Shown: positions 3,021 to 39,003 of the stretch, piece by piece
Numbering within the stretch: the first letter of the stretch is position 1
How the letters are laid out: every line of letters starts with the position of its first letter
Source of the DNA: a virus
Virus record (IMG/VR): IMGVR_UViG_3300017991_005548
Coordinates: 124,001-188,000 of that record
Reading direction: 5' to 3' (one strand)
DNA length: 64,000 nucleotides
The notes under the pieces: generated by a model
The model's input: the letters and a program-made list of their open reading frames with translations, nothing else
The model's database searches: none
What the model was told of the DNA's origin: nothing
Made by a program: the position numbers and the translations under genes

Positions 3021-3674
3021 CTACAAGCAAAAATACGAAAATTCAACAAAACCCATTTCCTCAGGTACATTTTCATATCTAACAACAAACCCATTTTCGA
3101 GCAATTCATAGACATAAAGTCTTGGAAAATCGAATGGGCCTGGATACTCGTTTGAAGTTGTGCTACTGTCACTACTTAAAGATTGGCTTGAACTACTGGA
3201 TGAGTCTTTTGAGCTAGAACTGGACGTACTGTCTGAACTAGGAGTATCTTCGCTACTGGTGCTGGAAGAATCTAATGAGCTTGAACTAGAGGAATACTCT
3301 TGTGAGCTTGAACTAGGAGATCCTAAGCTACTTGAAGAAGATTCGCTTGCCTCTGTTGAGCTACTACTGCTTGATGAGTCTTTTGAGCTTGAAGAACTGG
3401 ATTCAGTAGAAAGTGAAATTGAAGTAAGACTGGATTCAGAAGTTGGGCTTGATGAGCTTGATGAAGATATTCCCCCTATTGATAAACTTGATTCACTAGA
3501 AGAACTATATTCAATAGCTGGATTATAAATAGGTATAGAGGCCCATGTGATAATGGCACTCGTTATAGGATAACCAGTTATGATAGTAATATATCCATCT
3601 CCTGAACCAGCGTAAGCCTTCTTTCCTGTCAGGGGATAGTTATCAGATCTTCTTAAATCGTATCGTCTTATCAT
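3021..3674 (-). CDS. Ser-rich linker protein with short N- and C-terminal caps
   Basis: This 217-residue protein starts with about 50 ordinary residues containing GYITIITGYPITSAIITW, continues with a Ser-rich tract from about residue 56 to 175 broken by D, E, T and P, and ends in a 40-residue cap with aromatic residues (RLYVYELLENGFVVRYENV). The start overlaps the stop of the preceding giant gene as ATGA, so translation is probably coupled and the product should be made together with that protein. No catalytic motif or signal peptide is seen. It is probably a small virion or tail-fibre accessory protein, a role inferred only from its place and from the shared linker type. The Ser tract matches the linkers in the neighbouring giant proteins. 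Long open frames on the opposite strand are by-products of the repeat. Confidence 0.75.
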   Translation of the reverse strand: MIRRYDLRRSDNYPLTGKKAYAGSGDGYITIITGYPITSAIITWASIPIYNPAIEYSSSSESSLSIGGISSSSSSSPTSESSLTSISLSTESSSSSSKDSSSSSSSTEASESSSSSLGSPSSSSQEYSSSSSSLDSSSTSSEDTPSSDSTSSSSSKDSSSSSSQSLSSDSSTTSNEYPGPFDFPRLYVYELLENGFVVRYENVPEEMGFVEFSYFCL

Positions 3675-6600
3675 TCTGGTAGCCTTTTGCTTATTGGAAC
3701 GTTTATAATAGTTCCATCACTTGACCTCGGAATCCTTTTGGAAATATTATACATTACTCCAATATGATGGATAACTGCGACCTCATCAGTGAAATTTGTT
3801 ACTCTTGTTGCGACTCTGAATGATGACGCAAAGAACAAATCCATAAATATAGTTGTCGATGGGTCCTGTGGAGCCAAGAATGTAATCGTCCCTTCAATAT
3901 TATTGGCCGCGTATTCTGAAGAATCAATCAAAGTCCCTTGAGTCTCATCCAGTCCAAGTCTATAAACATTCAGTGTAAAGTTTGCATTCCATCGACCATT
4001 AACAGCCGTATAAGTTTTGAAATCTTCTGTTTGTAATAATTCATTAAACCTTGTGGGCAATATCGTATGTTGATCTGGAATGATGTTATAGTACTCTTCT
4101 GGTCTCAAGGATTCACTTTGAGTCATAAGGTATTCTACAGTAGAGTTCTCTGGGACATCTGCTTCGCTAGTTATATGAATTGAAGAAATGTATTCGTCAT
4201 CGTCCAAGTTCACTGAGATTGGTTTGAAGAAAATAACGAATTCTCTTGGGTTGTAATAATCAACTTCTACTCCACCGTTAATTACTGGGGTTTGGAAATC
4301 AGAGTTTCCAACGAGTTTGATCTCATATTGAATATATTTCTGCAAAGCATCAATTGACTTGTCATGTTCATAAGGAATTGAATAGTCAATGAAGTCAGTC
4401 CAGTCAGAATATGTAATCCCATCTACACTAGTTCTTATTCTGTAGGTTACTTCTGCTCCTGTAGGAACGGTAACTCCCGCTATTACAGTAGTGTCTGGGA
4501 TATTGGGATTCTCAAAGACAATCGTCCCAGTAAGAGTTGTTGTGTTAATTTGTAAATTATTCCCTGATGCGATCTCATTACAAATACTATTTATTTGGGC
4601 TGAAGTGCTGTTATCTAAGTAGAATACAGACGATCCTCCCTCCTCTCCATATTTCTCAAGCAAGATAGAGTCAGATGCATGGGGTTGCCCTAATTGAATC
4701 GGAATTATCTGAACTTCACCCTCTCCATCAACAAAGTTGACAGTTTGTACAGCTTGATTTAAAGAATTCTCGGATGTATTCTCGTCGCCATCTGTGACAA
4801 TGATTACAAATTTCTTATAGTCTTTGTAATCTTCGTTATTTGTTTGATATTGGACCAATTGCTCTGCGGCTCTTTTTACTGCATCATGCAATTGACTTGC
4901 ACCAAAGAAACCAAATGAATCGATTGCAGAGGCCAAGTAGATATCATCACTTGTTAACTCTGGGACTCTATGTCTAATGGATGGATACCATTGTTGAATA
5001 CTGGCCACATTGATGATGAATTGTCTTTCGGAAAGATAACCATCAGACGTTGCAGAAACTCTGGCCTTAATATGCATGTAATCTCTTTTTACTCCTGCTC
5101 CCATTACCAAGAATCCAGGATCAGTTCCTTCTTCGTCTTCTGGTGGTTTGTATGGAAGTAGTTCAACAGTAATACGAGATCCATCAGTTACAATCTCTTC
5201 TGGTACGACAATTACATTCCCGATATCGTCAACGTACTGATACTCAGGGAACTTCGCATAAACACGAATATCAAAACCTCTTTCAGTTTCTTCGATATCG
5301 GTAGCAGTATAGAATGTTGCGGACGTATCTTCACTTCCAGCAGGGCCAGCAACTCCTGATTGAGATGAAGCTTCTTCTTCGTCCTCATAATCTAATATAA
5401 AGATTGGTTCACCATTATTAAGGTCGTTCCCCAATTCTATCTTAGTAGCAAGTCGTCTTGCCAATTCAGTTCCAGCAGGCACTTCGAGCGTAGCAAACAT
5501 CATTCTGTTGCCTTCTGGATTCACAGGTTCATTTTCATATGGTTGCGAATTTGTGGGATCGTATCTAACTGTTCCATTTACAACAAAGTCTGTATCAATA
5601 TTCTTTGTTGGAAGAATGTTCGTCATGGCAACACATCTGACATTATGAGAGTGACTTAACTGCTCATCTGATTCATAGCTGGTAAACGTATGAGTATGAT
5701 TGCCAATTGAGCCGAACAAATTAATCGTACTTGTCGTAGTGCCATTCCCATTGATATCTAAGCTAATTACATGAGTGTGACTGCTTACTACTTCACCTCC
5801 GCTATCTTCGTCATATACGTCTGAACGAATTAAACCAGACTGAACAGAATAGTCAGACAAAGAAATGTCTTGGTTGGGACCGACAATCAAACAACCATCA
5901 ATCAGGTTTCTTGTATCCTTCATCTGAGGTAACTGTCCACCAGAAGCATTACTCTCTTCGCAAATTCCACTTTCAAATGTCACTTTTGGCAATGGATACT
6001 CTATTACTGACTCAAAATCGGTTCCCTCATTAATTGTGAGTTGATTGAGAATTGGTTGGCCTTTCCAAGTCAATTCAGCATAGATTCTTGCAGTAGTAAC
6101 TCCATCTCTGACAAAATTAGTCTCATATTTTAGCTCAATACCAAGGGGTTCCACATATTGTTGTAGTGGTTTTGGAATTCTAATGCCACCACCAGGAGTG
6201 GGGAGTGGCCTTCCATTGGCGATTTCTCCTCTTCTGTATCCCCCTTCTTCCTTTCTGTAAGAGGTATATGCTTCAACCTGACTTAACCAAGGCTCTCTAA
6301 AGATCTCACGTTCTCCAAGAGGTTGCTGATGTCCAATATTTTTGTTTTTAGGAATGGCTGTTAACTCAAGCCTATCTGTTTGCCAAGTGGACCTTCTAGG
6401 GTTTGAATTGAATGTTGTTAAAGTTCTTGGTAAATCATTCGGTTGTCCCAAACCTCTAAGCCTTTTTACACCATCCTCTCCAACGAAAATGTCAGTTGGG
6501 TTGAAGTCATCTTGTAAATCCACTACAATTTTTGCGTTTGGATTACTTTCTCCATCAGCGTAGATAGGTGTCAGAGCGTCTTTTGCATAAAAAATGAATG

Positions 6601-9600
6601 AATCATCCTCATCTCCAAAGTTCTGACCAGTCAAGCTAACGATCCTTCTAACTTTTCTTACATATCCAGATGGATGGAAAACTTCAATATCTACATTAAC
6701 ATCCACAATTGGAGGGCAAAGTTCTGCCGCCGCCGCACCCGCTTCCCTTGGTTCAACTGGCTCTATTGGCCCAATGAATACCCCTCCAGCCCAACCATTA
6801 TCAGTAACACTTGAGCTTGGCTCAACATTAAATTGTTTGGCTGATCTAAAAGAGAAGTTTACTTGGACGTTATCTTCAACAACTTCACTAGCGTCAAGAT
6901 ATTCCACGCCAGTCCCTATCTCATAAACTTCATTTTCAGCAGGGACCAAAACGCCTGGATTTACAGAAGTTATAGTAACTGGATTCGCTATGAAGAACAT
7001 ATCTGCTAATATTTGCTCATGTTGATCTCTGTCCCCAAACGATACAGAAGCTTCGATAAATAACAAGGAAACAATATCACTCGTTGGTATTGTTATAGAG
7101 GCTTTGCCATTAACTATTTCTAAAGAGAATTGATACTGCTCAAACTGTTTGGCATATGTCCATTCTGCTGGATCTTGATAGAAAAGTCCGCTTTCTTCCT
7201 CAGTATCTTGTTGAACAGATCCACCAACAAGTTCAATGTATTGATTAATGATGTCATTTGCGTTAGTAGATCTGAGTCCAGTTCCAGAACTTGCACTTGG
7301 TGCGCTATCCGTCTCATTAACAGATTCAAGAACTTCTTCGAACGGATTGTTTTGAACTATTTCTCTCCATTGATCGATAGCTGTTTTGGGTGTTTCCACA
7401 GGCTCCCCATTTTCATCAACAGCCACATTTTCCAATGGTCTTATATTAGCAAATTGTTGAGTTGTTGGATATGAAGAATCTTTATAAACAACATTTGATG
7501 CTGTTGCATCCAAATCAATCACTCTATTTGTATACAGAGTTATATTAATGAATTGATCGTTAGCTAAAACAAACTCATCAGCCACAATATAATTAAGAGT
7601 AATTGTACTGCCATCAGAAGCATGATATCCTCTAACATACCTTTTCTCATATCGTGGAAAACAATCTAAGCTATCTTCATCTTTTGGAGCGGCTAGATAA
7701 TATTGGACCCGATCTGATTCAACATAAGTACTGTCAATAACAATAGGGGAAATAAAAGAAACTTCAAATGGATCTAGATACAATCTAGCAAGAGTCCTCC
7801 CAGTTTCACCCATAAAATCGGCATATGCGAAAATCTCATAATCTTTCGAGAAGAATAAAGGATTTTCTATGCCAGGGATATTCAGCCCTTCAAAAGTTTT
7901 CTCCTCATATTCAGTGGCAAAACTCTGCATAGATGACGTAGCCAAACCATTAGAGGTATATATTGGAGTTTCGATTACATAATCGACATCTTCTTCTGTG
8001 GCATCAGTTTCTTCAGCAGTTGGTAATTCTGTGGCCGTTTCTTGATCCCCATCATTTTGCTCTAATTGAGCTACAATATCCGTTTCAGGAGAGTATCTGA
8101 GTAATCGACTTAAATCTTCTTCTTTGTCTTTTACTGTTTCCAATATATCTTCAACAATAGGAAGTACCCTTGCACAAACGTTACCATCAACAGTTGGCAT
8201 ATCAAGAGTTTGCCTCTGAGTAAATTTTTCTGCAAGATTCAAATCTTCATAAGGAGTTGATGGTGGAACTCTGTCGATATCATATGGTTTTAATAATGAT
8301 GGATCAACATCTTTGTCATTAACAATTGGAGTCACATCAACGCTAAGTATCTCTGTCGCAAGAATATTATCTGTTGGAGTTAACTTCTCATCTGACGATT
8401 CGTTAAGTCTTATGGTTGTTCCCAATTCAGCAGAAACATCAAACAAAAGTGGATCGACAATATCAATGTATGGCCCAAGATTTGGATCAGTTCCAATCTC
8501 ATCAATTTTGGTTGTTTGGATGTTACCTGATTTATCTAGAATATCAATAATACTTTCTCTGAAATACCCCTCAGTAGATTGTACATAAATTCTTTTTTGG
8601 CCAGCAAACGATGGGTATGTTACAAAGGCTGATTCTATTTTGTCTTTTGCAAAAATGTCTGGCTCTTTATCAACTAACAAATTGACTTCTGTTCCGTCAG
8701 GGAACGGAGTTCCATCTTTCTCAAAGAAACTCATTGGAAGAAGGGCTGTCTGCCCAAAGAAGAAGATGTTATAACTCACCCATTCACTAAATGCTTCGAA
8801 ATCCCACTCTAAATAGTAACCATCTGAATTCTGCAAATAAAAGACGACATCTCTTGAGACCTTAGTATCTCTAACAAGGATGTTTGCGGTTGATCCGTTA
8901 ATGTTTGTTATTTTGTTATAAGAACTGTCTTGAACAATACTGCCAGCTAAACTATTATTTGTGACAGCGAGGCGCACACCAGGATCGAAGGTTATTGTAT
9001 TACTATCAATCTCTGTGATTGTATGGCCAATATTAGCGGCATCCCCTTGTAAGATATCTATTACATCTCCAACTTCAAAATCAGAAGCGTCTTCAACTGT
9101 TACAGTTGTGTCTCCAACATACAAAATGCTAGTAATATTGCTTTGCGTTATTCCTGCATTTGTTAGTAGCTTTCTGGAGATAAGATTTGTAGATGCAACG
9201 ATATCTATGGACTCTTCATTATTTGGGGCATTATTCCCAAGAGTAATTGAAGGAGATTCACTGCCAGGATAAAATAACTGCCAATTAGTAAGATTTACAT
9301 CACTAATAACATTGAAGTCAACTTTGAAATCTCCAATATTGTATGTATGGTTATTTTCAAGAGTCTTAAATCCATAAGCAATCATGGGATCTTCAACAGA
9401 AACAGCAGTAACTGATGAGAAATCTATTGTCGCATCACCAGTTCCAGAAACCAGATTCAAAGTCCCACTATCAATTGGACTAGTGTTACCATATGTAATT
9501 AAAGAAATCTGATCACTTTTTAGCTTATGTTGAACCGTAAACTCAGCACCATTATTCTCATAAACAGCGTCAACATCAGCCTGAGAACCCGAAACATCAA

Positions 9601-11587
9601 AGATGTAAGTTGTTCTACTTGGGTTATTCAGGTCTAGGTTAATCGTTGCGAATGTCCCAAGTCCTGCTGTAATAGTGGATACATCAACATCAGAACCCCC
9701 GAAGGTGAACATATCAAACTTTATGTCAGACGGATAGTAGGTTTTAAATCTATTTACTAAGCACTCAACGATGTTTTGTCGGTTGTTGTATCTGTCCATC
9801 ATCCCCATACTTCCAGAACTATCTACAACAAATGAGAGTATTGCATCAGAGTACTCAATTTCACCATCAACAATGTCATCTTCAATGGTTATCGGGTCTG
9901 TGGCAGGAGGTGTTGTTATAGTACTGTTTCCTGGATCGAAAGGGTCAAAGTTACCAACAACTCTTAAAGCAAAAACGGAATTGTAAAGGTCTTCCCAAGT
10001 AGTCTCATCTTTACTTGTCCATGCAAAAGTGTCTGAATCAGCATTTTTCTCATCATATGCCCATAATACAAAATTATCTTCATCTCCATTGTGGCGCAAT
10101 GTGATGGAAAGATATCCATTACTAGGAGTTGTTTCATCCATTAAATCGAAATCGAACGCATACCAATCGTCTTTAACAATTGTTGAGGCATGAAGTGAGG
10201 CCAAATGGAGTTCGCTTTTAGGAGTCCCATCATCATAACAGTCAGATATGGACATCCTTATCCAATAATTTGATGTTCCTCTTGCCCTGTACAAGAATAC
10301 ATAAACCTTACCAATACTGTATTCCGAATCATAGACTTTGAATGTTTGTGCAAGTCTATTTCTTATGTTTGGGTTGGCCGCAGAAGACAAACCTAATAGC
10401 AATGGTTTTGTTTGGTTCCAAAAGAGACCCGAACTAGAAGAGCTTGAGGAAACATTTGCTTCACTTTCACTACTGGTACTGGAAGAATCAATACTTGAAC
10501 TACTAGAGGTTGAATTACTTGTTGGACTGGATGAAGAAGAGTTTGACTGTGAACTTTCCGATTGAGAACTATGCCCAAGGCTTGAAGAAGATGAGCTTGA
10601 ATCAAGAGAACTTGAACTAGAAGAGCTACTTGTTGTAACTGTGCTGGATGAGTAACCACCCGAATCAGAAGAGCTTGAATCAAGAGAACTTGAACTACTG
10701 CTAGAACTTGAGCTAAATTGGTTACAAGATAGGGCTAAGGTATTCGGAAATGGCAATAGGGTTCCATCCCAGTCAACTGTACCAGATAATCCACTATTGT
10801 TTTGTTCAATAAGAGTTATTGTTCCTGCGCCAGTCCTTTGACCGACAGCTATTAAGTTGATTAAGCCAACCTCCCTATAAACTCTGACCTGTTGAATTGC
10901 TCCTTGGACAAACAAACCAACATACATATTGCAATTGGTAGTGTTTCCATCTCCCATCCCTGAAAAAGTCCAGTTTGTGAAGTAAGCACAATTGCCCCCT
11001 TCGCAGAATGGACTTGTACAACATTGGGAGCTACTTGAGCTTGGAGATTGAGTCGATTGACTGCTTGTACTTGAAGAATCAATAGAGCTAGACGAACTAG
11101 AGGTGCTTCTGTCGATACAATATATTATGCCTGAATAAGAGAAGTCAAGTGGAGTCCCATCCCAATTTACTTGTCCAGTTATCCCGCTATTATCTCTTTC
11201 TTCAAGATCTATATCTGAGGCTACCAATGAAGTAACTTGCCCCAAAGCTATGATATTAAAATATGTTGGGTCTTGGTATAGTTCAACCTGCTGAGTGTTA
11301 GTTGCTGGGAAGAACACCGTTCTTACATAAATAATTTCATAATCAAGACTTACCCCAATAAGATTCCACCCAGTTAGATGAGCACAAGCAGTTCCTTCGC
11401 ATTCTGGGTATTGACAGTATCCCGAACTACTAGAGCTTGAGGAAGAGTCTATACTCGAAGATGAGCTACTAGAAGTAGAAGAAGAATCTATACTCGAAGA
11501 TGAGCTACTAGAAGTAGAAGAAGAATCTATGCTCGAACTCGAACTTGAACTTTCGCTATATTGAAAACTTGAACTTGAACTTGACAT
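3671..11587 (-). CDS. Giant tail-fibre/tail-tip protein with split von Willebrand A domain
   Basis: This 2638-residue protein is modular. Residues 1-55 are Ser-rich. Two copies of a roughly 105-residue Cys-containing domain (CEGTACAHLTGW, CEGGNCAYFTNW) follow at about 60-160 and 185-290, separated by Ser linkers. A lectin-like beta domain spans about 386-550. A von Willebrand A (vWA) domain begins near 580 with the metal site DSSGSMG (D589) and a strand KFDMFTFGG. Its other half (GASQLHDAV near 2227 and FVIIVTDGDENT near 2265) appears about 1,650 residues later. The insert is beta-rich and holds HTH/HSH pairs near residues 1940-1980. The C-terminal 350 residues look like further beta domains. 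vWA domains usually bind ligands through Mg2+ or Mn2+; the ligand here is unknown. The start directly follows the stop of the next large gene, with a weak ribosome binding site. Confidence 0.8.
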   Translation of the reverse strand: MSSSSSSFQYSESSSSSSSIDSSSTSSSSSSSIDSSSTSSSSSSSIDSSSSSSSSGYCQYPECEGTACAHLTGWNLIGVSLDYEIIYVRTVFFPATNTQQVELYQDPTYFNIIALGQVTSLVASDIDLEERDNSGITGQVNWDGTPLDFSYSGIIYCIDRSTSSSSSSIDSSSTSSQSTQSPSSSSSQCCTSPFCEGGNCAYFTNWTFSGMGDGNTTNCNMYVGLFVQGAIQQVRVYREVGLINLIAVGQRTGAGTITLIEQNNSGLSGTVDWDGTLLPFPNTLALSCNQFSSSSSSSSSSLDSSSSDSGGYSSSTVTTSSSSSSSSLDSSSSSSSLGHSSQSESSQSNSSSSSPTSNSTSSSSSIDSSSTSSESEANVSSSSSSSGLFWNQTKPLLLGLSSAANPNIRNRLAQTFKVYDSEYSIGKVYVFLYRARGTSNYWIRMSISDCYDDGTPKSELHLASLHASTIVKDDWYAFDFDLMDETTPSNGYLSITLRHNGDEDNFVLWAYDEKNADSDTFAWTSKDETTWEDLYNSVFALRVVGNFDPFDPGNSTITTPPATDPITIEDDIVDGEIEYSDAILSFVVDSSGSMGMMDRYNNRQNIVECLVNRFKTYYPSDIKFDMFTFGGSDVDVSTITAGLGTFATINLDLNNPSRTTYIFDVSGSQADVDAVYENNGAEFTVQHKLKSDQISLITYGNTSPIDSGTLNLVSGTGDATIDFSSVTAVSVEDPMIAYGFKTLENNHTYNIGDFKVDFNVISDVNLTNWQLFYPGSESPSITLGNNAPNNEESIDIVASTNLISRKLLTNAGITQSNITSILYVGDTTVTVEDASDFEVGDVIDILQGDAANIGHTITEIDSNTITFDPGVRLAVTNNSLAGSIVQDSSYNKITNINGSTANILVRDTKVSRDVVFYLQNSDGYYLEWDFEAFSEWVSYNIFFFGQTALLPMSFFEKDGTPFPDGTEVNLLVDKEPDIFAKDKIESAFVTYPSFAGQKRIYVQSTEGYFRESIIDILDKSGNIQTTKIDEIGTDPNLGPYIDIVDPLLFDVSAELGTTIRLNESSDEKLTPTDNILATEILSVDVTPIVNDKDVDPSLLKPYDIDRVPPSTPYEDLNLAEKFTQRQTLDMPTVDGNVCARVLPIVEDILETVKDKEEDLSRLLRYSPETDIVAQLEQNDGDQETATELPTAEETDATEEDVDYVIETPIYTSNGLATSSMQSFATEYEEKTFEGLNIPGIENPLFFSKDYEIFAYADFMGETGRTLARLYLDPFEVSFISPIVIDSTYVESDRVQYYLAAPKDEDSLDCFPRYEKRYVRGYHASDGSTITLNYIVADEFVLANDQFINITLYTNRVIDLDATASNVVYKDSSYPTTQQFANIRPLENVAVDENGEPVETPKTAIDQWREIVQNNPFEEVLESVNETDSAPSASSGTGLRSTNANDIINQYIELVGGSVQQDTEEESGLFYQDPAEWTYAKQFEQYQFSLEIVNGKASITIPTSDIVSLLFIEASVSFGDRDQHEQILADMFFIANPVTITSVNPGVLVPAENEVYEIGTGVEYLDASEVVEDNVQVNFSFRSAKQFNVEPSSSVTDNGWAGGVFIGPIEPVEPREAGAAAAELCPPIVDVNVDIEVFHPSGYVRKVRRIVSLTGQNFGDEDDSFIFYAKDALTPIYADGESNPNAKIVVDLQDDFNPTDIFVGEDGVKRLRGLGQPNDLPRTLTTFNSNPRRSTWQTDRLELTAIPKNKNIGHQQPLGEREIFREPWLSQVEAYTSYRKEEGGYRRGEIANGRPLPTPGGGIRIPKPLQQYVEPLGIELKYETNFVRDGVTTARIYAELTWKGQPILNQLTINEGTDFESVIEYPLPKVTFESGICEESNASGGQLPQMKDTRNLIDGCLIVGPNQDISLSDYSVQSGLIRSDVYDEDSGGEVVSSHTHVISLDINGNGTTTSTINLFGSIGNHTHTFTSYESDEQLSHSHNVRCVAMTNILPTKNIDTDFVVNGTVRYDPTNSQPYENEPVNPEGNRMMFATLEVPAGTELARRLATKIELGNDLNNGEPIFILDYEDEEEASSQSGVAGPAGSEDTSATFYTATDIEETERGFDIRVYAKFPEYQYVDDIGNVIVVPEEIVTDGSRITVELLPYKPPEDEEGTDPGFLVMGAGVKRDYMHIKARVSATSDGYLSERQFIINVASIQQWYPSIRHRVPELTSDDIYLASAIDSFGFFGASQLHDAVKRAAEQLVQYQTNNEDYKDYKKFVIIVTDGDENTSENSLNQAVQTVNFVDGEGEVQIIPIQLGQPHASDSILLEKYGEEGGSSVFYLDNSTSAQINSICNEIASGNNLQINTTTLTGTIVFENPNIPDTTVIAGVTVPTGAEVTYRIRTSVDGITYSDWTDFIDYSIPYEHDKSIDALQKYIQYEIKLVGNSDFQTPVINGGVEVDYYNPREFVIFFKPISVNLDDDEYISSIHITSEADVPENSTVEYLMTQSESLRPEEYYNIIPDQHTILPTRFNELLQTEDFKTYTAVNGRWNANFTLNVYRLGLDETQGTLIDSSEYAANNIEGTITFLAPQDPSTTIFMDLFFASSFRVATRVTNFTDEVAVIHHIGVMYNISKRIPRSSDGTIINVPISKRLPE
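11446..11531 (-). repeat. 39-bp tandem DNA repeat encoding a Ser linker
   Basis: Two near-identical 39-bp units plus a partial one sit at the 5' end of the giant vWA gene. They encode the 13-residue period SIDSSSTSSSSSS. Near-identity at DNA level, rather than only at protein level, suggests recent duplication. Confidence 0.8.
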
Positions 11588-11589
11588 CT

Positions 11590-14500
11590 TTAATTAACTT
11601 CTGGCTGAATCAGAGGTAAAATCTCTGAACTTCCTTTCTTTGTAGAGAAGATTTCTCCACCTGTTGTACCTGCTACTGTTTGTCCTGACGCAGATTCAAC
11701 TCTTACTATACCATTGACTTCTAAGTTGCCTTCAACGAAGTCATTTAGGTCAGCTATATTCTCCCAGGTATTCCCATCATCCTCACTATTATAAATGAAA
11801 CTGCTTGAACCCACGACCAGAATATTATTTTGGTCTTTTTTCATATCGGAAACGACATCGATTAATGCAGTGTTTCTGTGAGTATGTTGAGAAGGCAACC
11901 CTCTAATCAGATAATCTTCCACCTGGATTGTTTCAACTTGATTGTTGCGTACCATGTGCTCATGTGTATTCGAAAATTCGTCTCTCAAAACCTTTACCTG
12001 AACAGTATTCGCAACAAAATAAGCGTTACTTGCAACGATCTCTAGTTTTATGGTTGTCGAGTCGATTACTGATTTGATAAAATTGGTTTCTGATTTATTC
12101 GCAGAAGATATGATAGTAATCTTATCTCCATTAACCATATTAGTTGTATCCTCAACCTTAATCGTTGAGTCTCCCAACTCAATATCTTCTGTGACAACAT
12201 GTGTACTTGTTACAAAGTCATCATAATATATATTCTTTGTATAGCCATAATTAGTGGCGTTGATTTCCCAACTCCAAGTCTCAGAAATTTTGATATTGTT
12301 GTATTCGGTGAAGTCCCAATTAGTATTGTTGAGTAACTTAACGGTCATTGTTGTCGCTGTATGCTGAACTACCTCACTAAAATATTCAACTCCAATTTCC
12401 AATGGGTTCCAGAATCGAATTCTTGCATCTTTGAAAAGAGTTCCATCTTTTTGAACCAATGCATTGTTAAACAAGCTTGTATCAGAGACTTCAAACTTAA
12501 CAGTGGCATTTAGAACCTGTTCAAAAGAAGCTATCGATCCACTAACAAATCCACCAACCAAATCCAAATCATGATAATGGGATGAATCCGTAGAAGTAAT
12601 TTTGTTATTGAAAGAAGATAATGGTTGGTAAATCGGACCAGTTAATCTAAATACATCGTCAGACCCTATAATCAACCCCACAGGAGTTGTTATTATTTCA
12701 GTATTAATTAAGCTAGAGAAGTCATTTAGTATGATCTTATTCCTAGAATTCTGATAAACTGTCATGCCTTCTATCAACGCGGCATCACTATCACCATTGG
12801 TAACTTGGAAATCAAAATCAACCAAGAAATTATCAACAACATTTTGGGTAAAAACTACGTCAAGGTTAACTTTTCCACTACTGTCAATCCCTACGAATGA
12901 TTGCCCAGGTATGATATCTTCATTAGTAGAATCTGGAGTCTCAGCATTGTAGGGGGTGATAGTTCCGTCAATGATTATCTGATTTGACGTATTAGAAACA
13001 ACTGTGTACTCTTTGCCAAGATTTCCATTTTGATCAGTTGATACGTAAATTTTTCCGTTAGCCAATTGATTGTTTTGCGTGAGGAAGTCAAAATCAACAT
13101 CAAGAACTGACCTATCTCCAACAAATTTTATTCTCTTGCCAACATACGTTAACCAAATAGCTACGAATTCAGTTTCCAGTTCTACAGTTATTTCTCCACC
13201 AATTGTCCTAGAAGAGTTTTCCGCGATAGTGTACCCAGCTACAATAGGCAAGTCTACAACATAAAGTGTTCTTCCTTTGTATTGATTTGCTGAAATAGTA
13301 TCTGACGCTTCAATTGACAGAACTACCGCATTATTAACAGGGTTGACAGAAATCGATTTTATTAAGCCAGATACATCGATATTAGTTACCTGTCCTGGGA
13401 ATCCAACAGACCAAATCTGACCATCATAAGGGAACTCACCTGTTGTAGTTTGACTATCTTCGTAAACTCCGATATCTGTACCAAATAATATATTTCCATT
13501 GTCAGCTTCTACCATATCGTTTACAACAACTGGGTAAACTTCAAATGCCAAATTACCACTCTGGCTTTGGATAGTTTCATTAGCCTCTCTGCCAAGAACT
13601 ACAATAGATGAATCAAATCCTGAGTTGAAAATCACCCTACCACTGAAGATAGGAGTGTCGTTCCCTTCGGCAAAAATGGAGATGTTGCGTTTGTCCAATT
13701 CTCCGTCTGCATATCTAAAGTCATTTGGATATGTATAGGATACTGACATAATGGTATGTCCAAAGGTTGAAACTTTGGATGACTGAATTGTTCCCCTAAC
13801 TTCTTCAAACTTCCTATACGTACTCCATACCTTACCCAAGTCGGAACTTCTAAGAATATAGTGAATCACATTACTCAGGTCCGTTCCTGCGGCACTAGCG
13901 AGAATCCCACCAGTTGATATCGGCAAAAAGTTTACGATGTTTACGTTTTCAACTGTAGCATCAAACAATCCAGAGGTCCATACAAAATCACCAAGGTATG
14001 GGGTGTAAGCAATTTTATTCTTCCCTCCAACTAGCAAAGTATTGGTCAGGTCAACGTTACCAAGGTTTTCCTCTCCATCAAACTGTTGCCACCAAGACCC
14101 CATAGTTAATCTAACACTTGCGATTGTTTCTGGATCTTCTTCAAAAGGAGGAGAAACCTGGATAGAGTTTGGAGTAGCTTTTACAATAACATAACTTGTG
14201 TTATTTTTAGGGTTCGATGGATCACTTATAGTTTCTATCTTAACTGCTCTATTTGGTACTAACTCTGAGTAAATTCCCCCAGCCGCTTTGATAATACCAA
14301 CTGTTGGATCTCCCTCAATATTTTTAAATGAAGCTTCATGAGGTGGAATAACAACAAAACTATCTTCAGGCCATCTTAAGGACATAGAGAGTGCAGGGAA
14401 TCTGACGGCTTCCTGATCTTGAAGCGTCCATGTGATCATATCCTGAGTCAAATAAACCCCGTTATCAGTTGCAACTAACAGATTCTCATCCCCAAAGACA

Positions 14501-29348: not shown

Positions 29349-29384
29349 AATAATTCTCCATGTTATGCTAATAAATCCTTAAAC

Positions 29385-29390: not shown

Positions 29391-29409
29391 CATGAAGGGC
29401 TAGGTCAGA

Positions 29410-30147: not shown

Positions 30148-30158
30148 TTGATTACTCC

Positions 30159-30599
30159 TTATGAATAGTCAAAGAACACCTTATATGCTCCATTTCCCGT
30201 TTCAAGATTAGTCGATCCAATCTCAATATCAAGATAGATGTAGTCAGATACAGCAGAACTTTTGTTCCCTATATCTTCATTGTTTGCGTCTCCAGATGTT
30301 CCTGTCGTGTTGAGTCCAGAAAAGTGGTTAGACAATGGGGAAGATGCTACTGAGGAACTAAAATCTGGTGATGTTTCGATACCGAAATGGCCATCGTCCC
30401 CAGAAGTTACACTAATTCCGCCATTTGATATGACCCCCAGTTTGATATTTCCTACTGCGGAAACATCATCAAACGCTATGTCGATGACCTTAACTCTACT
30501 ATGAGTTCCAGAAGTTATTCTCCCAAAATCCAAAATAGAGACGTTGCCTAACAGAGCGCCACTCTCATTATGATACTCCCTAACTGTAATACTAGGCAT
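30159..30599 (-). CDS. Hypothetical small beta-rich tail protein
   Basis: This 146-residue protein is unrecognised. I chose the ATG at 30599 because AAGGAGAAAACT gives an excellent ribosome binding site; a longer in-frame reading to 30659 would start inside the previous gene. The sequence is beta-rich with Gly/Ser/Thr-rich loops (ITVREYHNESGALLGNVSIL, VKVIDIAFDDV, YIYLDIEIGSTN) and ends in YKVFFDYS. Such short all-beta proteins are common as fibre tips, capping proteins or decoration subunits. It lies 10 nt after the 1017-residue propeller protein and 11 nt before the lectin-like gene, so all three should be co-transcribed. Confidence 0.65.
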   Translation of the reverse strand: MPSITVREYHNESGALLGNVSILDFGRITSGTHSRVKVIDIAFDDVSAVGNIKLGVISNGGISVTSGDDGHFGIETSPDFSSSVASSPLSNHFSGLNTTGTSGDANNEDIGNKSSAVSDYIYLDIEIGSTNLETGNGAYKVFFDYS

Positions 30600-30609: not shown

Positions 30610-33600
30610 TTATTTTTTAGGCATAATCCATTTTTTGGTTTGGACTTCGCTCCAGCCACTATCGGCTGAGTAAACCTGAATATTTACATAATATAGTTCT
30701 CCAGGAGTCAAGTTATCTCCTCCACCATAATAGATTGAGTTCAAGTCTGTTTCAATTATACCAGAGTCCCACTTGTCGCTCAAATATGGCTGAGAACCAA
30801 CAAAAATTCTTACTTTTTCAACTGTTCCGATTTCTTTGATATGTTCGTTTTTAACAACCATGGCCGTATATTCAGTGACCCCACTGTCTACCCAACCTTG
30901 GAAAGTAAAGTCTTCGAAACTCAAGAACCCAACTAACCCACTTTGAAGAACGATAACCATTTGATTATTCTGCTCGTCATAATCAACTCCAATTGATCCA
31001 AAGAAATCGATCTCCGTTTCACTTGAAGAAGGATAAATATCAACCATACTAAAATCAGCATCTGAGAAATCTTCGTTCGCATCATTGACTTCTGCGGCAA
31101 GCCATTCCATTCTTATTTTGTAATCTGAAGCTATTTCCAAGGTTGCTGGAACATTCCAAGCAAACACTCCAGTGTTCGGAGTTGATGAAGTTATGGTTCT
31201 CAAAAATACATCTTCTTTATATAACTCAATCTTGACAGAATCATTAATGGACTTGTTAGATTTCCATAATATCTCGACTTCTCCACCAATTAAAACATTC
31301 TCACCACCATTAGGATATTCAATCTCTACAGGTTGTGTTGCTGGAGTCGGATTATCTTCCTCATCGGGCTTAAACAAAACATTAGGAGACGTTGTAACAT
31401 TGTATTCTCCGTTCAATGTATTGTAAGCGTGATGTTGAGCGACAAACTGATCTCCCCCAGCATCAATCTCAGACAATCCATATAAGAAGTTGTTAGAACA
31501 GAACTTACAATATCTAGCCTGACCGTTGGTGAATCTTTCATTAATCAATAATCTAAAGAAGTCTCTATCAAGAACTCTCAAATAACTATCATCGGACCCA
31601 TTTAATGCAATCATAAGTTGACCGTTACTTGAAATGTCGAAATCTGAGATTTCATATCCCTCAATTCCATAGATTGCTGTGATTGATCCGTCATACTTCC
31701 AAAGAACATTCGTCCCAGCAACAAATGTTGAATTGTAATAATCGGATTGTACGATTTTAAACGGAGCATCGAACCCATCAACTTCACTAACAGTTGTCAA
31801 AGCATCTGGGTCGAGTTCTTGAATCTTTCCTAACTCTGGCAGTGCTGTCCATATGTTAGTATCATACCACGACATAATTTGATAAACATTATCAACAGAT
31901 GTATTCTCAGTTACAAAAAGTTGAGGTTGATCAGAGTTGTCAATGAAATGTTCAATTGTATATTTCTTAAGTTTCTCATCTGTAGTGACATACATTTGTT
32001 GCCCTTCAGGATTAACAATAATGTTCTTAATTGTACCGTCCTCAGAGGTACTAAATGCTGATGCGGCTACATTTGAGTTATATTCGATTTTATAAAGTCT
32101 GTCGTCCGAAGTTCCAGCCCAAAATGATCCTGTTGAATCTTCTAATGGATTGTAAGAAACATTTGATGAAATTGCATCAGTAATTAAGTCTTGATTCCAA
32201 GTGAATTTAGGTATGATAAATGAGTATTTTACTTGTTCGTCTTTATATTTTTCTTCCTGAATCCTAACACTGATATTTTTAACAGGAGAGTCTTTGACAA
32301 TTAGATCCACATAAAAAATGGGTTCATGTTTAATGTTGACATCATCATCTTCTGGAACATAACAATTGCTTGCTCCAGCGATTTCCTCAACATCTGGAGG
32401 ATTCAGTAGATTGTCGTAATTGAAAAATTCATTATTAACAGTTCTAAACGAGAATTGTATTTGTTGAGTGTCGTCATCTGAATCAAATCCACTTTGTGGA
32501 GTATAGGTAAATGGAATTAAGTTGTCTGGGTTATTTCCAGCAATGATCTGGTTTAATACTTCTGTGAACTCATCTGGTAAGCTTGAAAAAGAAGATTCAG
32601 AAGAGGAGTTCACATCCCATTCGTCTCCGTCAACATCCTCGGATATTGCAAACATTAAAGAGCCATTATAAGCAATCGCTGGTCTTCCATCTACAACAGT
32701 TAAAGAAGTCCCCTCAGTATTGTTTGTCAATGAAGAGACAACCACTGGTGTTGGCCAATTCGTGCCATTTATATCTTCAGAACGAATATATCTTAATTGA
32801 GTGTCTACAGAAGCTTGATAACTAATCGCAGGATGTCCATTCACAATGGCTAGGGAGTTCCAAACCCCGACATAGCCACTATCAACATCTTTTATGTTCC
32901 CCGCCGACCAATTTAACCCATCAGCATCGTCTGCGATAGTGTATTTTAGCTTAAAGCCATGGACATCATAATAGCTTACACAAGGCTTGCCATTGGTGAT
33001 GGCTATAGACATATATCTATAACTTCCCGAATCAATTAAAAATCTATTTGTAGAGGTCCAGCTAGACCCATTAGCATCATCTGCCTGAAGATAAGATAAA
33101 AATGAGCTTTTTCTGTATACTACTGCTGGCTTGCCATTTACCTCTGCTAAAGAAGATTCCCTAATGAAGTCTGGAGTATTGTCAACTTGCTTGACATTTC
33201 CTGCTGACCAATTTGATCCATCAGCGTCATCTGCTATTGCATATTTGATATATTGATTAGTCTCATCCCAATATGATATTGCTGGCTTACCATTAATTAT
33301 TGCCAAAGATGGATTGTGCCCCACGTCACCAAATGAATCTACTGTTTGGTAATTCGACCAACTTGAACCATCAGCATCATCTGATTGAATATAAATGAGG
33401 TTTTCTACAACAGAGTCATAATATGCTATCGCAGGTTTTCCGTTTACAGAGGATAATGAAACCTCAAAACTAGAAGCCCCACCAGAAGAAATAGTTTTTA
33501 TATTGCTGGATGGCCAGAAAAGGCCCTCTATATCACTGGCAATGACATACTTTAATTGTGAATTGTCATCATCATAATATGCAATAGCTGGCTTGCCATT

Positions 33601-33663
33601 AATAACCGACAAGCTGGAGCTTGTCATGGTTGTTCCGCCAGAATCTACTGTTATAATTGCCAT
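30610..33663 (-). CDS. Adhesin with seven-repeat NGKPAIAYYD propeller, second propeller and Kre9-like domain
   Basis: This 1017-residue protein opens with seven tandem repeats of about 48 residues (about 1-350). Each has a core such as NGKPAIAYYD, a strand (LxYxxADD), and a D-G-x-x-W end. Seven copies fit a single seven-bladed beta-propeller. After a short Ser tract (about 355) and a linking beta domain, residues about 500-770 form a second propeller-like region (FWAGTSDDRLYKIEY). A Kre9-like sandwich lies at about 776-880 (YPNGGENVLIGGEVEILW, FAWNVP), close to the one in the protein at 22147-24585. The C-terminus is fibronectin-III-like (TPGELYYVNIQVYSADSGW). It has a GAGG ribosome binding site. 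A role as a tail-tip adhesin is inferred from the architecture. Confidence 0.8.
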   Translation of the reverse strand: MAIITVDSGGTTMTSSSLSVINGKPAIAYYDDDNSQLKYVIASDIEGLFWPSSNIKTISSGGASSFEVSLSSVNGKPAIAYYDSVVENLIYIQSDDADGSSWSNYQTVDSFGDVGHNPSLAIINGKPAISYWDETNQYIKYAIADDADGSNWSAGNVKQVDNTPDFIRESSLAEVNGKPAVVYRKSSFLSYLQADDANGSSWTSTNRFLIDSGSYRYMSIAITNGKPCVSYYDVHGFKLKYTIADDADGLNWSAGNIKDVDSGYVGVWNSLAIVNGHPAISYQASVDTQLRYIRSEDINGTNWPTPVVVSSLTNNTEGTSLTVVDGRPAIAYNGSLMFAISEDVDGDEWDVNSSSESSFSSLPDEFTEVLNQIIAGNNPDNLIPFTYTPQSGFDSDDDTQQIQFSFRTVNNEFFNYDNLLNPPDVEEIAGASNCYVPEDDDVNIKHEPIFYVDLIVKDSPVKNISVRIQEEKYKDEQVKYSFIIPKFTWNQDLITDAISSNVSYNPLEDSTGSFWAGTSDDRLYKIEYNSNVAASAFSTSEDGTIKNIIVNPEGQQMYVTTDEKLKKYTIEHFIDNSDQPQLFVTENTSVDNVYQIMSWYDTNIWTALPELGKIQELDPDALTTVSEVDGFDAPFKIVQSDYYNSTFVAGTNVLWKYDGSITAIYGIEGYEISDFDISSNGQLMIALNGSDDSYLRVLDRDFFRLLINERFTNGQARYCKFCSNNFLYGLSEIDAGGDQFVAQHHAYNTLNGEYNVTTSPNVLFKPDEEDNPTPATQPVEIEYPNGGENVLIGGEVEILWKSNKSINDSVKIELYKEDVFLRTITSSTPNTGVFAWNVPATLEIASDYKIRMEWLAAEVNDANEDFSDADFSMVDIYPSSSETEIDFFGSIGVDYDEQNNQMVIVLQSGLVGFLSFEDFTFQGWVDSGVTEYTAMVVKNEHIKEIGTVEKVRIFVGSQPYLSDKWDSGIIETDLNSIYYGGGDNLTPGELYYVNIQVYSADSGWSEVQTKKWIMPKK

Positions 33664-33671
33664 TCTTTACC

Positions 33672-34493: not shown

Positions 34494-36632
34494 TTAGCAC
34501 CCCCAATCTCCATTTCCTCTTTCCCATTTAATAGTTACTCCATCAGTTGTCAGAATATATCCAAATTGCCCATTAGCTATCTCTGATCCTAATGTCCATG
34601 TAGCAGGGTTTATATTGTCATTAGATAAGTTTATTGGATTTTGCCAAGTTCCTGAGTAATATCCAACGTATCTATTCCAGTCACCTCCATGACCATTGTT
34701 ATCATAACGAACATTAAGGTACATCCATGTACTAGTATATCCAGTATAATATATTGACACAAAGGCATTCATATTAATTCTGTCGTCACCTTCAGTTTGC
34801 CGCCAATATTCTCCACCAGGAGGGCCAGGATTACAATTATAATTATCTGGGCAAACTTCCTGAGGTTTCCCATTTGCAAATTGGCATCCAAGGAAACTTC
34901 TTTCTGTAGGTGTCTCTCCAGACCAAGATAAAGTAACAAATATTGTTGGACCTGTATCTCCAGGACAATTGCACTGAGGAAGTCCAGACGAACTTGAGCT
35001 AGAGGTAATTCCGAGAGAGCTATCACTACTTGAGGAATCCAAAGAACTAGAAGAACTACTTGATGTACTAGAGGAACTACCCTCTCTTGCACCAGTACAT
35101 TCATACATATATGCTTTCCCAGGATTTCCATCATTATAGATATATGAACCAATCCCTATATAATCTCCATTAACTGCAACCTCATTATATGTTTGGTTAC
35201 TTGGGTTTGGTTCTGTAAAATTCTGATAAAATATCCAAGAATCATCAATCCATCTATATAGATTTTGTCCGATTAATAGTTGATCTCCATCTATAGAAGT
35301 CTGAAATGAAGTGGAACCTAAAGAAAATCCCTGAACATAATCCCATGAATCTCCATTCCACTCATATGCATAAACATATCTTGGATTGTTTTGGGAAATT
35401 GTCATTCTATCCCCATTAATCCTTACGAGATAACCAAGCCCATCATTTGGAGTTGGCCCAGTGAAAGTTTGAATATGTTTCCATTTGCCATTTATTCTTT
35501 CATAAGCGTATGCCCTACCCCTTTCGCCATATTCTCTACGAGCACCAACAATTGCATGATCTCCATAAATAGATACTGCGTTTCCAAAATACCCATTAGA
35601 TTCTGCGTTGGGAGATGAGAGTCTTTTCTCTAGATACCATGTGCTCCCACTTCTTGCATAAATATAAGCCAACCCACCATTTGTTTCATAAGTACCTTGA
35701 TATGCTCCAATAATAATCCTATCCCCACTCATATAGCATGATACGCCAAAATAATCATCAATATTAGGATCTTGTATAATTTGATGCTGAACCCATGATG
35801 ATCCATTCCATCTATAAATAAATAGATATCCCTCTTCCCTTTCTGTGGTTATAGCACAATAATTTCCTCCATCATATGCAACCTGCCATCCGAAATGCCG
35901 ATACAGAGAACTATCTGCTTCGATCATTTGCTTTTGAGTCCAAGAACCATTTTCCAATTCATAATAAAAAACTTTCCCATATGAGTCCAAACTGTCATAA
36001 TGACTAGCCCCAACAAACATTTTTTTACCAGAGATCTTTATTTGTGTACCATATCTGTCACCGTTTATTGGCCCCTCAATGGCTTGTTTGTATTCGAAAC
36101 ACCCATCATTAAAACTTGATGACGAACTATTTGGAAGACAGGCATGTTCACAAACTTCAATTGTTTGCCCCTTCTCGTATTTAGAACTTGCGCTGAGATT
36201 GTCAAGGGTAATAACATCCTCTGCACCTTTGTTTACATAAGTTCCTTGATCAACTCCATCTATACAAACAGTTCCTTCAGGTATTACCCCCAAAAATGGA
36301 GGTGGAGAGAACCACATAGTGCCGTGAGATTGCGAAATGTTTCCGATTGCTGTTGTTACACAAATAAGAGAGCTAGAAGAAGAAATATTCTCCAAAGATT
36401 CCGAAGATGAAGATTCCCCACCAATAGATTCAGAGCTTTCTGAAATTGAGCTTGGCATGAAGCTATCAGATGACGAACTAACAAGTTCACATTCCAAACA
36501 GGTTGAGAAAGTTCCCTCAATACTTAATGGATCAGTATCGACAGGGTCATAGGTTCTCTCAGTGTACGTATAGCACGTCCCCTCTATCCTAACTGTCTTC
36601 CCCTGATATTCTTCAAATACTATATGTCCCAT
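34494..36632 (-). CDS. Adhesin with seven FG-GAP-like repeats and a Cys-containing C-terminal domain
   Basis: This 712-residue protein has a short N-terminal Cys domain (residues 1-50), a Ser linker (about 51-90), a second Cys-containing domain (about 91-170), then seven FG-GAP-like repeats (about 180-512). The repeats have cores such as GDRYGTQIKISGKKMFVGA and YGKVFYYELENGSW; such repeats build integrin-type propellers. A Ser linker (about 517-553) leads to a C-terminal domain of about 155 residues (FVTLSWSGE, ICP/VCP-DNY, GVTIKWERGNG) that also closes the next upstream protein at 36646-39003. The C-terminal domain is the likely distal binding head, which is an inference. The start has a GGAG ribosome binding site (GGAGTGAATA). 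No enzyme motifs were seen. Confidence 0.8.
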   Translation of the reverse strand: MGHIVFEEYQGKTVRIEGTCYTYTERTYDPVDTDPLSIEGTFSTCLECELVSSSSDSFMPSSISESSESIGGESSSSESLENISSSSSLICVTTAIGNISQSHGTMWFSPPPFLGVIPEGTVCIDGVDQGTYVNKGAEDVITLDNLSASSKYEKGQTIEVCEHACLPNSSSSSFNDGCFEYKQAIEGPINGDRYGTQIKISGKKMFVGASHYDSLDSYGKVFYYELENGSWTQKQMIEADSSLYRHFGWQVAYDGGNYCAITTEREEGYLFIYRWNGSSWVQHQIIQDPNIDDYFGVSCYMSGDRIIIGAYQGTYETNGGLAYIYARSGSTWYLEKRLSSPNAESNGYFGNAVSIYGDHAIVGARREYGERGRAYAYERINGKWKHIQTFTGPTPNDGLGYLVRINGDRMTISQNNPRYVYAYEWNGDSWDYVQGFSLGSTSFQTSIDGDQLLIGQNLYRWIDDSWIFYQNFTEPNPSNQTYNEVAVNGDYIGIGSYIYNDGNPGKAYMYECTGAREGSSSSTSSSSSSSLDSSSSDSSLGITSSSSSSGLPQCNCPGDTGPTIFVTLSWSGETPTERSFLGCQFANGKPQEVCPDNYNCNPGPPGGEYWRQTEGDDRINMNAFVSIYYTGYTSTWMYLNVRYDNNGHGGDWNRYVGYYSGTWQNPINLSNDNINPATWTLGSEIANGQFGYILTTDGVTIKWERGNGDWGC

Positions 36633-36645
36633 TATTCACTCCTAC

Positions 36646-39003
36646 TTATGGACAGTTCTCATTTCCTGTTGTTGGAACGTAATTCAAAGAGCCATTTTTC
36701 CAACTACCCCAAGGTTGTCCTGATCCCGAAATTGGCTCCCACTTAATAGTAACTCCCTCTAAGTGACCCGACGTAACAGTACATTTCCCAAACATGATGT
36801 CTCTAATGTCAGTGTAAGCCGAAGCGCTACTCCCCCAAACCCCACACAATGTTGTTGGAGATACGTTAATCATATTGTCTACATTAAAGTGAGGATTGCA
36901 ACCAGTTGTTGTACCATATCCTCCACCTTCATTATAGTTCAAACCTACATAAAACTGGGCTTGGTTATTTCTTATTATAACTGCTATGTCTGCTTCTCCT
37001 GGGCTATATCCACTTCCTTGGTCTACACTGAGTCGAACTGAGTCATCTATGGCTATTCTCCAAACTTCTCTGCCTGAAGTCCAGTAATTGCTTGGACAAA
37101 TTATTTTACTCTCCCCATTTTCCCACTCTTCTCTTAAGAAAACCCTAAGACCTGGACCACTCCAACAAAGTGTCATTTTTACTCTTGGATCGGAATTCCC
37201 CTCACAATTTATCTGATCTAACGCATCGCTTTCAGAACTAGAAGAGCTAATAGAACTACTGCCCAAACTGCTCTCACTTGAGTCAGAACTGAACAAGAGA
37301 CTGCTTTTACTTGATTCAGATGAAGATGTATTTCCAATACTTTCTGAGGAACTACTAATTGATTCACTAATTGAACTGATACTTTCAGTAAATAGCTCGC
37401 ATGCATCATATCGCCAATTTAAGAAACCTGATGAATCTGATGAAGAAGACGGAGGATCAAAACTAGAACTCGATTCAGAAATGGTTATACTTGATTCACT
37501 TGAACTTGAATCAGATCCGACAACCCCAGAACTTGACGACTCAGAATTTCCTAAGGAACTTGACTCGGATTGTGAACTGGAAGATTGTGAAATCGAACTT
37601 GATGACTCAGAATAATTCTCACTTGAGGAGCTAGACGAAGGACTAGATAAACTTGAACCACTCAGAGTTGACTCACTTTGGGTTGACTGACTTTGGGTTG
37701 ACTGGCTTGTGGAAGATACAGCGCTTACTTCTGATATACTACTAGTAGAATATCTATCACTAGAGCTACTGGATGAGTCAAGAGATGATGAACTTGACGA
37801 TTGAGAACTCGAACTTGAGCTTTGATCTAGGTCAGCCTCTCCATAAACGGCTCGATACCTGAAAGCTGTATGAGAGGGCATTGTTTGACTAGCAAGATCA
37901 ATGGCAATTGTGTCATCATTTATCGGCAATCTTTTGAATTCAACTCCTTCGTCTCTCAAACAAGTAACTAAACCTCCACCAGAATAAATTACAGAAGAAT
38001 CGTTTCCTCTAGCCTTCAAAAAACCTTGATTCCCAGGAATAATTCTTGCTGACCACTCTTCAGTATAGGGAATAGAAAACTTAACTGCATCGTCCAAACC
38101 TTCGTCTATTAGATAAAAAACATCCATATCACCACTAATATTGGTGACATTAGTTCTGCCAGTCGCCAAATATGTCTCATCTAATGTCCCTGAATCAAAC
38201 CTGCCAAGATATTGATTTCCGAACACAACAAAATAACCGGAATTGCCTTTGCCTATATCTAGAATAAGATTGGCAGACGTATCAGATGATACAGAGTCAG
38301 AGTAATAATCCAATTCAAAAATTTCATACCCTGATAAAGTTTGAGCAGAAATGACTACATTACCATTTCTTTTGTTTAAGAACTTTCTAACATTACCCGA
38401 GATAGAAGATCCTAATAAATACTTCTCCAATACCTTGGCATTCTCTAAAGACCTCTTGAGTACTTGGGTCTTCTGAACCTGCCAGAAAACGCCTCGACTC
38501 CCATCAACGATAATCTCTAAGGCTTCAGATCCCAGATTAAATGATTTCTTGATTCGAATAGTGTCGGCAGTACCAAAGCAAAATAGTGTTTTGTCATAAT
38601 AAGAATAGACATTGTTGGTTTTATTGTCTACTGAGAGCATTGACAGGTCAACACCTGTATCAAATCTCTCAATAATATGGGTGCAATCTCCTGTTAAACG
38701 ATAAATAATTCCATCGCTAACAGCGAAAACATTCTCACGCATCGCGTTAACTATTTTAACGCGCATTGTGTAGTCAGTATAGAATTTTACGCCTTCTTCG
38801 CCTAAAGGAAAATCAATAAAATTAACGCCATCAAAGCTGTAAAATATTGACCCTTTTACTGCATTCTCCCTAAAAGTCGAGAGATTGTACAGCACAGAGC
38901 CTTCATTGAGTCTGTAGAACTCAAATTCATAACCAACTGGAACCCCAACTTGATCTGGATTTATATTGACATCCCATTCGAAAAATTTTGCTTTGTATGA
39001 CAT
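36646..39003 (-). CDS. Adhesin: propeller-like N-domain, long Ser linker, Cys-containing C-terminal domain
   Basis: This 785-residue protein starts with a region of about 390 residues that reads as a beta-propeller (VFAVSDGIIYRLTGD, NVYSYYDKTLFCFG, GVFWQVQKTQVLKRS). The Ser-rich linker (about 391-590) is unusually varied (STQSQSTQSEST, SESSSSFDPPSSSS) and is interrupted near residue 522 by a short ordered motif, FLNWRYDACELFTE. The C-terminal domain (about 596-785) shares KMTLCWSG, ICPSNY, FYVGLNYN and GVTIKWEP elements with the C-terminus of the downstream neighbour. The two proteins thus look like siblings with different middle modules. The start follows seven bases after the upstream stop, with a weak GGAAT ribosome binding site. 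Confidence 0.78.
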   Translation of the reverse strand: MSYKAKFFEWDVNINPDQVGVPVGYEFEFYRLNEGSVLYNLSTFRENAVKGSIFYSFDGVNFIDFPLGEEGVKFYTDYTMRVKIVNAMRENVFAVSDGIIYRLTGDCTHIIERFDTGVDLSMLSVDNKTNNVYSYYDKTLFCFGTADTIRIKKSFNLGSEALEIIVDGSRGVFWQVQKTQVLKRSLENAKVLEKYLLGSSISGNVRKFLNKRNGNVVISAQTLSGYEIFELDYYSDSVSSDTSANLILDIGKGNSGYFVVFGNQYLGRFDSGTLDETYLATGRTNVTNISGDMDVFYLIDEGLDDAVKFSIPYTEEWSARIIPGNQGFLKARGNDSSVIYSGGGLVTCLRDEGVEFKRLPINDDTIAIDLASQTMPSHTAFRYRAVYGEADLDQSSSSSSQSSSSSSLDSSSSSSDRYSTSSISEVSAVSSTSQSTQSQSTQSESTLSGSSLSSPSSSSSSENYSESSSSISQSSSSQSESSSLGNSESSSSGVVGSDSSSSESSITISESSSSFDPPSSSSDSSGFLNWRYDACELFTESISSISESISSSSESIGNTSSSESSKSSLLFSSDSSESSLGSSSISSSSSESDALDQINCEGNSDPRVKMTLCWSGPGLRVFLREEWENGESKIICPSNYWTSGREVWRIAIDDSVRLSVDQGSGYSPGEADIAVIIRNNQAQFYVGLNYNEGGGYGTTTGCNPHFNVDNMINVSPTTLCGVWGSSASAYTDIRDIMFGKCTVTSGHLEGVTIKWEPISGSGQPWGSWKNGSLNYVPTTGNENCP

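Follow-up and report, generated by a model that had tools for sequence, protein, structure and literature searches.

A possible polyserine-decorating system shared by Planctomycetes, Verrucomicrobia and phage-G-like megaphages with modular tail adhesins

What purpose do long Ser-rich strings serve in the tail proteins of a very large phage, and how have the domains that they join come together? These questions are raised by a 64,000-nt stretch of the 296-kb record IMGVR_UViG_3300017991_005548, called the window below. Bare coordinates refer to the window, while those with the prefix G000 refer to the enclosing record. A second IMG/VR record of 476 kb overlaps the first one almost base for base, and the two combined give a genome of at least 508.7 kb. 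Since portal-like, maturation-protease-like and tail-tube-like genes are present, and since the major head protein is homologous to gp27 of Bacillus phage G (Donellivirus gee) with 55% identity, the virus is, judged by its gene content, a large tailed phage, namely a phage-G-like megaphage. At the limits used, tblastn searches with the window genes 3671, 22147 and 39010 gave zero matches to phage G, and the same three gave zero matches to isolated phages. IMG/VR contains 80 related loci.

A sequence-only reading of the locus had proposed seven proteins with long Ser-rich stretches placed between or beside folded beta domains. All seven open reading frames are indeed there (Table 1), with one to three strings each. 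The Ser content of these strings is 63–75%, that of the non-string proteins of the genome 6.5%, and 20 random proteomes of equal lengths and composition contained no Ser-string blocks. The placement of the strings between or beside folded domains also holds, but the modules are not all beta. Pfam assigns LamG and LRR to 19141, FG-GAP repeats to 24935 and 34494, and a Kre9/Ig-like domain to 22147; the LRR fold is not purely beta. Structure prediction gave an all-beta model with low confidence for one C-terminal module (pLDDT 48.6), and both this model and that of the anchor module described below (65.8) are too weak for a fold search. No glycoside hydrolase or CBM domains were found by Pfam in the Ser-string proteins of the window.

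Table 1. Tail-region genes of the window, with the residues occupied by Ser strings
Gene product	Position (strand)	Ser strings (residues)	Description
217-aa Ser-string protein	3021..3674 (-)	57-174	[56]-118-aa Ser string-[43]; 4-nt overlap with next gene
2638-aa tail protein	3671..11587 (-)	2-55, 161-187, 287-386	N-terminal ~386 aa contain three Ser strings and a pair of modules with 40% mutual identity; conserved core begins directly after last Ser string
2513-aa tail protein	11590..19131 (-)		Conserved frame; without Ser string, G013 homologue has one
1001-aa adhesin candidate	19141..22146 (-)	246-257, 497-743	N-terminal domain-Ser12-LamG-Ser247-LRR-like C-terminal module
812-aa protein	22147..24585 (-)	5-65	Ser string at the N-terminus, then Kre9/Ig-like domain; C-terminal domain also conserved in relatives G016, G038 and G034
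1091-aa protein	24935..28210 (-)	302-361, 699-746	Three modules joined by two Ser strings, FG-GAP in the middle
Sulfotransferase	28257..29348 (-)		Pfam Sulfotransfer_1/3; both nucleotide-binding motifs, PRSGTS at 19 and RDPRQVAKS at 141
1017-aa protein	30610..33663 (-)		Without Ser string; repeat module and Kre9/Ig common to Ser-string proteins
712-aa protein	34494..36632 (-)	52-88, 519-549	~50-aa N-terminal anchor-Ser-FG-GAP propeller-Ser-C-terminal module; in 17-gene anchor family
785-aa protein	36646..39003 (-)	395-424, 443-525, 541-592	N- and C-terminal modules with Ser strings in between; C-terminal one homologous to its counterpart in 34494-36632
1455-aa tail protein	39010..43377 (-)		Bounds cassette; same-place homologues in G013, G016, G034 and G038
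900-aa tail protein	43599..46301 (-)		Hub/baseplate candidate, conserved in lineage
Tail-tube-like protein	59434..60363 (-)		phrog_290, tail
Eighth Ser-string protein	60835..61416 (-)	93-192	92-aa domain and 100-aa C-terminal Ser string
Head-tail protein	61502..62560 (-)		Last residues CECSSSSD; G005 homologue ends in short Ser run

The strings extend far beyond this block. About 35 Ser-string reading frames with 7,006 string residues are present in the 296-kb record, and further ones in the overlapping 476-kb contig. The 68 strings lie between modules, are 67% Ser and acidic (14% D+E), and have a median length of 43.5 residues, with the longest reaching 1,224. Outside the block they occur, among others, in the protein at 60835-61416, encoded beside the tail-tube gene, in one from the head-tail region (G000 193154-194653) and in adhesin arrays distant from the block. 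For this reason, the proposal that the seven proteins are host-binding adhesins of one tail tip had to be reduced: the tail region stands, the single tip is not supported. The seven genes lie downstream of the tail-tube-like gene, and the FG-GAP module has matches among structural virion proteins from isolated phages; we infer that the Ser-string proteins are part of the virion and bind the host. A single continuous reading frame at G000:C1:261791-274621, within which the 476-kb contig terminates, encodes 4,276 aa with 52% Ser and strings of 1,224, 973 and 558 residues.

Most members of a 17-gene anchor family (G000:C1:11787-25516 and 78407-88307, G001 203921-205453 and window 34494-36632) also carry Ser strings. 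Their layout is a conserved N-terminal anchor of ~50 aa (YQGxSIKIxGxCY...CLxC), with a Ser string immediately behind it and then a variable module. Within IMG/VR the anchor module was found in this phage only, and no PHROG corresponds to it. A second paralogue array (SDYVGDSLxKLLLNENT) is located at G000:C1:82776-85746, and its relatives lie within the tail cassette of G013.

It is important to consider whether the strings could be DNA-level repeat expansions caused by slippage, or assembly artefacts, without any function at the protein level. Some of them do contain internal DNA duplications, with 153 repeated 36-mers within strings compared to 0 in the codon-shuffle null. However, serine is encoded here by six codons from two unconnected boxes, in roughly background proportions. 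In 33 of 34 genes, adjacent Ser codons switch between TCN and AGY above the shuffle level, in 30 of 34 identical neighbours are rarer than in the shuffles, and no such bias is seen outside the strings. The mixed and alternating codons speak for selection on the serines of the protein rather than for simple DNA repeats, and a microsatellite origin is rejected on these grounds. In addition, the reading frames remain open, the two overlapping records differ at only 1–2 bases in 24–27 kb, and strings are found at the same place in relatives, all of which makes slippage or artefact a highly improbable explanation. The codon alternation also shows how a genome can keep a highly repetitive protein without fully repetitive DNA.

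The comparison with relatives reveals a conserved tail frame, consisting of 39010-43377, 11590-19131 and the core of 3671-11587, which encloses a replaced Ser-rich cassette. In the 255-kb relative G013, matches to 43599, 39010, 11590, 3671 and 855 occur in conserved order, but the genes lying between those for 39010 and 11590 are without a match to the cassette of this phage. The homologues of 39010, 43599, 11590 and 3671 are collinear in G013 and partly in G016, G034 and G038, so that the tail-module gene order is shared with members of the lineage. The cassette between 39010 and 11590, by contrast, is replaced as a whole in relatives. The alignment of 3671-11587 to its G013 homologue begins at residue 390, four residues past the last Ser string, which means that its N-terminal Ser region, ~386 aa that are absent from G013, is an add-on. 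G013 has Ser strings elsewhere, for example in the homologue of 11590-19131. In two other structural proteins, 60835-61416 and G000 193154-194653, the string position is kept in the divergent relatives G003 and G005, while the insert around the string of the latter protein is absent from G013 and most other relatives. The tail blocks of G016, G034 and G038 are Ser-poor, yet glycosyltransferases are encoded in these blocks too. Another lineage relative, L227 (IMGVR_UViG_3300033145_003233, 548 kb), combines a Ser-poor tail block with Ser-string proteins elsewhere in its genome. The gene at 855-2966 encodes a 703-aa protein with a metallophosphoesterase domain, which is conserved beside the tail module in G013.

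Within the phage itself, modules are reused. When the proteins are cut at the strings, the modules form families, and the same families occur with differing partners in different proteins. Thus 34494 and 36646 have homologous C-terminal modules, and 24935 and 34494 homologous FG-GAP modules; the LRR-like C-terminal module of 19141-22146 has a counterpart in G000 277873-282324, and the last module of 24935-28210 has one in G000 282335-285766. Alignments end at string edges in 37.6% of the cases compared to an expected 5.9%, a difference that the masking of the strings favours. Outside the anchor array and family, 34 pairs of neighbours across a string differ and 4 are homologous, the pairs being non-independent. 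In the anchor family, pairs with anchors that are 82–92% identical mostly have modules of only 21–41% identity behind the string (one pair has 80%), and the variable modules reject the grouping given by the anchors, in which two groups are well supported (pAU 0.0175). These comparisons support exchange, or very unequal evolution, across the strings. The earlier suggestion of domain exchange through the linkers thus gains support from module reuse and cassette replacement, and modular adhesins with exchange across linkers would account for the sequences. Ongoing recombination via matching linker DNA, on the other hand, finds no such backing: shared exact stretches of at least 36 bases between strings of different genes are limited to two gene pairs, and matching linker DNA is therefore not a general recombination substrate now. 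A diversity-generating retroelement was also considered and rejected, as G000 and G001 contain no match to the reverse transcriptase family PF00078.

The genes that could modify the strings lie mostly outside the window and were not covered by the sequence-only reading. About 3 kb past one Ser-string array there is a sugar cluster with glycosyltransferases, methyltransferases, a sulfotransferase, NeuB/PseI-like and PseF-like genes, and a GT42/Maf-like enzyme. The gene of the latter (G000 28937-30247), which has a Planctomycete homologue at L381 9887-10831, is ~3.4 kb from that other array and ~97 kb from the block in the window. Inside the adhesin cassette, the sulfotransferase at 28257..29348 is a candidate modifier enzyme. 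The GT42/Maf-like enzyme scores 25.5 bits against the MptE-like family PF01973, which we take to be Maf-related, where the Pfam cut-off is 34.6. With the family profile, 8 of 9 PDB matches are Cst/sialyltransferases (weak, E 0.03–0.08, over a short core segment), and the best solved structures among the matches, again weak, are Campylobacter-type CMP-sialic-acid transferases. The NeuB/PseI-like and PseF-like genes are short, diverged and below the curated cut-offs, so that the sugar could differ from a nonulosonic acid.

The sequence-only reading knew of no described phage with this whole arrangement. Uniqueness is not supported, because Ser strings also turn up in numerous environmental viral contigs besides this one, as well as in Planctomycetes and Verrucomicrobia. 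Three further viral contigs, L350 and L351/L352, which represent two independent phages, have related transferases encoded next to Ser-string proteins; in the examined portion of a fourth viral contig with a related transferase no Ser string was found. The bacterial members of the family come almost exclusively from Planctomycetes or Verrucomicrobia records; the best 80 loci come from ~51 assemblies. Of 77 bacterial loci, 60 carry a Ser-string gene immediately downstream of the transferase gene, compared to 10 of 831 other reading frames, an association whose p-value is inflated because the bacterial loci are related to each other. Reading all three frames excludes a shadow-frame artefact in these high-GC loci, and the gene pairs are real. 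In most loci the downstream genes have a common in-frame start, MSDGPTRYYLYIPVWATG, and one Verrucomicrobial Ser-string partner begins with MSESSSSESSSSESSSIDSSSS, which is the phage motif. A pattern scan for SSSSSIDSSS gave 26 matches, of which one is a true Ser-string protein. The transferase and the Ser-string gene form a two-gene unit in L353-L432 (Planctomycetes, Verrucomicrobia), with several copies per genome. The Phycisphaerae partners have a weak Hint-domain match, and Verrucomicrobial RHS/YD-repeat-type proteins with Ser strings are found at L354 11839-19080, L356 5088-7337 and L357 12094-19323, and in L354 and L357 a gene of this transferase family precedes them immediately or at a short distance. 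Sulfation was considered as a further shared association but is not counted, because the piece of the window sulfotransferase that matches L236 lies in a Cys-rich C-terminal stretch outside the catalytic motifs.

From this gene association we infer O-glycosylation of the strings and the kind of sugar attached. The main rival is that the strings are plain polyserine linkers, merely flexible and unmodified, with the sugar genes serving another purpose. It has a precedent in the polyserine linkers of Saccharophagus, Teredinibacter and Cellvibrio carbohydrases, which consist of ~40 residues, a length close to the median found here, have ~80% Ser, and join modules with a function that is unexplained (PMC2699552). 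The phage strings resemble these in that Ser-dominated segments join folded modules, carbohydrate-binding or other, in many proteins per genome. They differ in being located in structural or tail proteins rather than carbohydrases, in their lower Ser content and acidity, and in that the genome also carries genes for sugar transfer. With up to 1,224 residues, the strings far exceed what a linker needs, and the GT42/Maf-like family adjoins Ser-string genes in bacteria and phages alike, so that unmodified linkers appear unlikely, although they deserve serious attention. A second option is that the cluster changes the host surface or the phage DNA instead of virion proteins and has nothing to do with the strings, in line with the fact that phage glycosyltransferases commonly act on DNA or on host serotype (PMC12619734). 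This is a good deal less probable still, considering that the transferase family is paired directly with Ser-string proteins in the bacterial loci and adjoins them in viral contigs.

We favour, with moderate confidence, the explanation that a phage-G-like megaphage has modular tail adhesins whose Ser strings serve as glycosylated spacers resembling mucin. The window would then be a tail module in which a frame of giant proteins encloses a fast-changing cassette of multi-domain adhesins, whose lectin-like, propeller, Ig-like and LRR modules are linked by Ser strings acting as extended, acidic spacers. In the infected cell, the strings would probably be O-glycosylated by the phage-encoded GT42/Maf-like transferase, perhaps with CMP-nonulosonic acids from the NeuB/PseI-like and PseF-like enzymes as donors and with subsequent sulfation. 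The resulting mucin-like bristles could keep the binding modules off the virion and shield them. Over long times, new adhesins may form by the joining of modules across strings, and modules may be exchanged or replaced as hosts change. A broader proposal, which we can put forward only tentatively, is that Planctomycetes and Verrucomicrobia have a dedicated polyserine-decorating system, composed of a GT42/Maf-like transferase and Ser-string acceptors, in common with megaphages, probably viruses of these very bacteria, and that the megaphages employ it to make tail adhesins with mucin-like glycosylation and exchangeable binding modules.

Taken singly, modular adhesins of phages, polyserine linkers and glycosylation of virions are nothing new. 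Among open-licence papers we found no description of their combination in one megaphage or of the pairing of GT42/Maf-like transferases with Ser-string proteins, which is no proof of novelty. The SRR glycoprotein adhesins of Gram-positive bacteria present a binding module on a long, Ser-rich, glycosylated stalk. The phage proteins would share the long Ser-rich stalk and the binding module, with glycosylation suggested by the genes, but they are virus-encoded, and a crude test by pattern only gave no LPxTG anchor or signal peptide in any of the 35 Ser-string reading frames. In mycobacteriophages, virion glycosylation concerns the C-termini of capsid and tail-tube proteins (Freeman et al. 2023, as described in PMC12619734 and PMC11256854). 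Going by these descriptions, in both cases the phage encodes glycosyltransferases and has structural proteins with candidate acceptor tails, one of these proteins being encoded next to the tail-tube gene; the cases differ in that the candidate transferase here is GT42/Maf-like and in that the putative acceptors are long adhesin Ser strings. Maf enzymes glycosylate Ser/Thr of flagellins with nonulosonic acids, as outlined in PMC11339370. The MptE-like/GT42 signal of the present enzyme is weak but consistent, and nonulosonic-acid genes are nearby; however, its partner is a Ser-string protein and not flagellin, its scores are below the curated cut-offs, and it belongs to a family of its own in Planctomycetes and Verrucomicrobia.

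If the favoured explanation is correct, the phage makes its own glycoprotein adhesins, with serine stalks that are long and carry sugars, and tail fibres would here be built and protected in a new way. The explanation would also provide a function for a widespread gene pair of Planctomycetes and Verrucomicrobia, and point to these bacteria as a host lead for environmental phage-G-like megaphages. Finally, among the head-tail genes there is a 362-aa protein (G000:C1:187730-188818) with an actin-like GVDVGTSN motif, recognized by eye, which is 56–67% identical in relatives.
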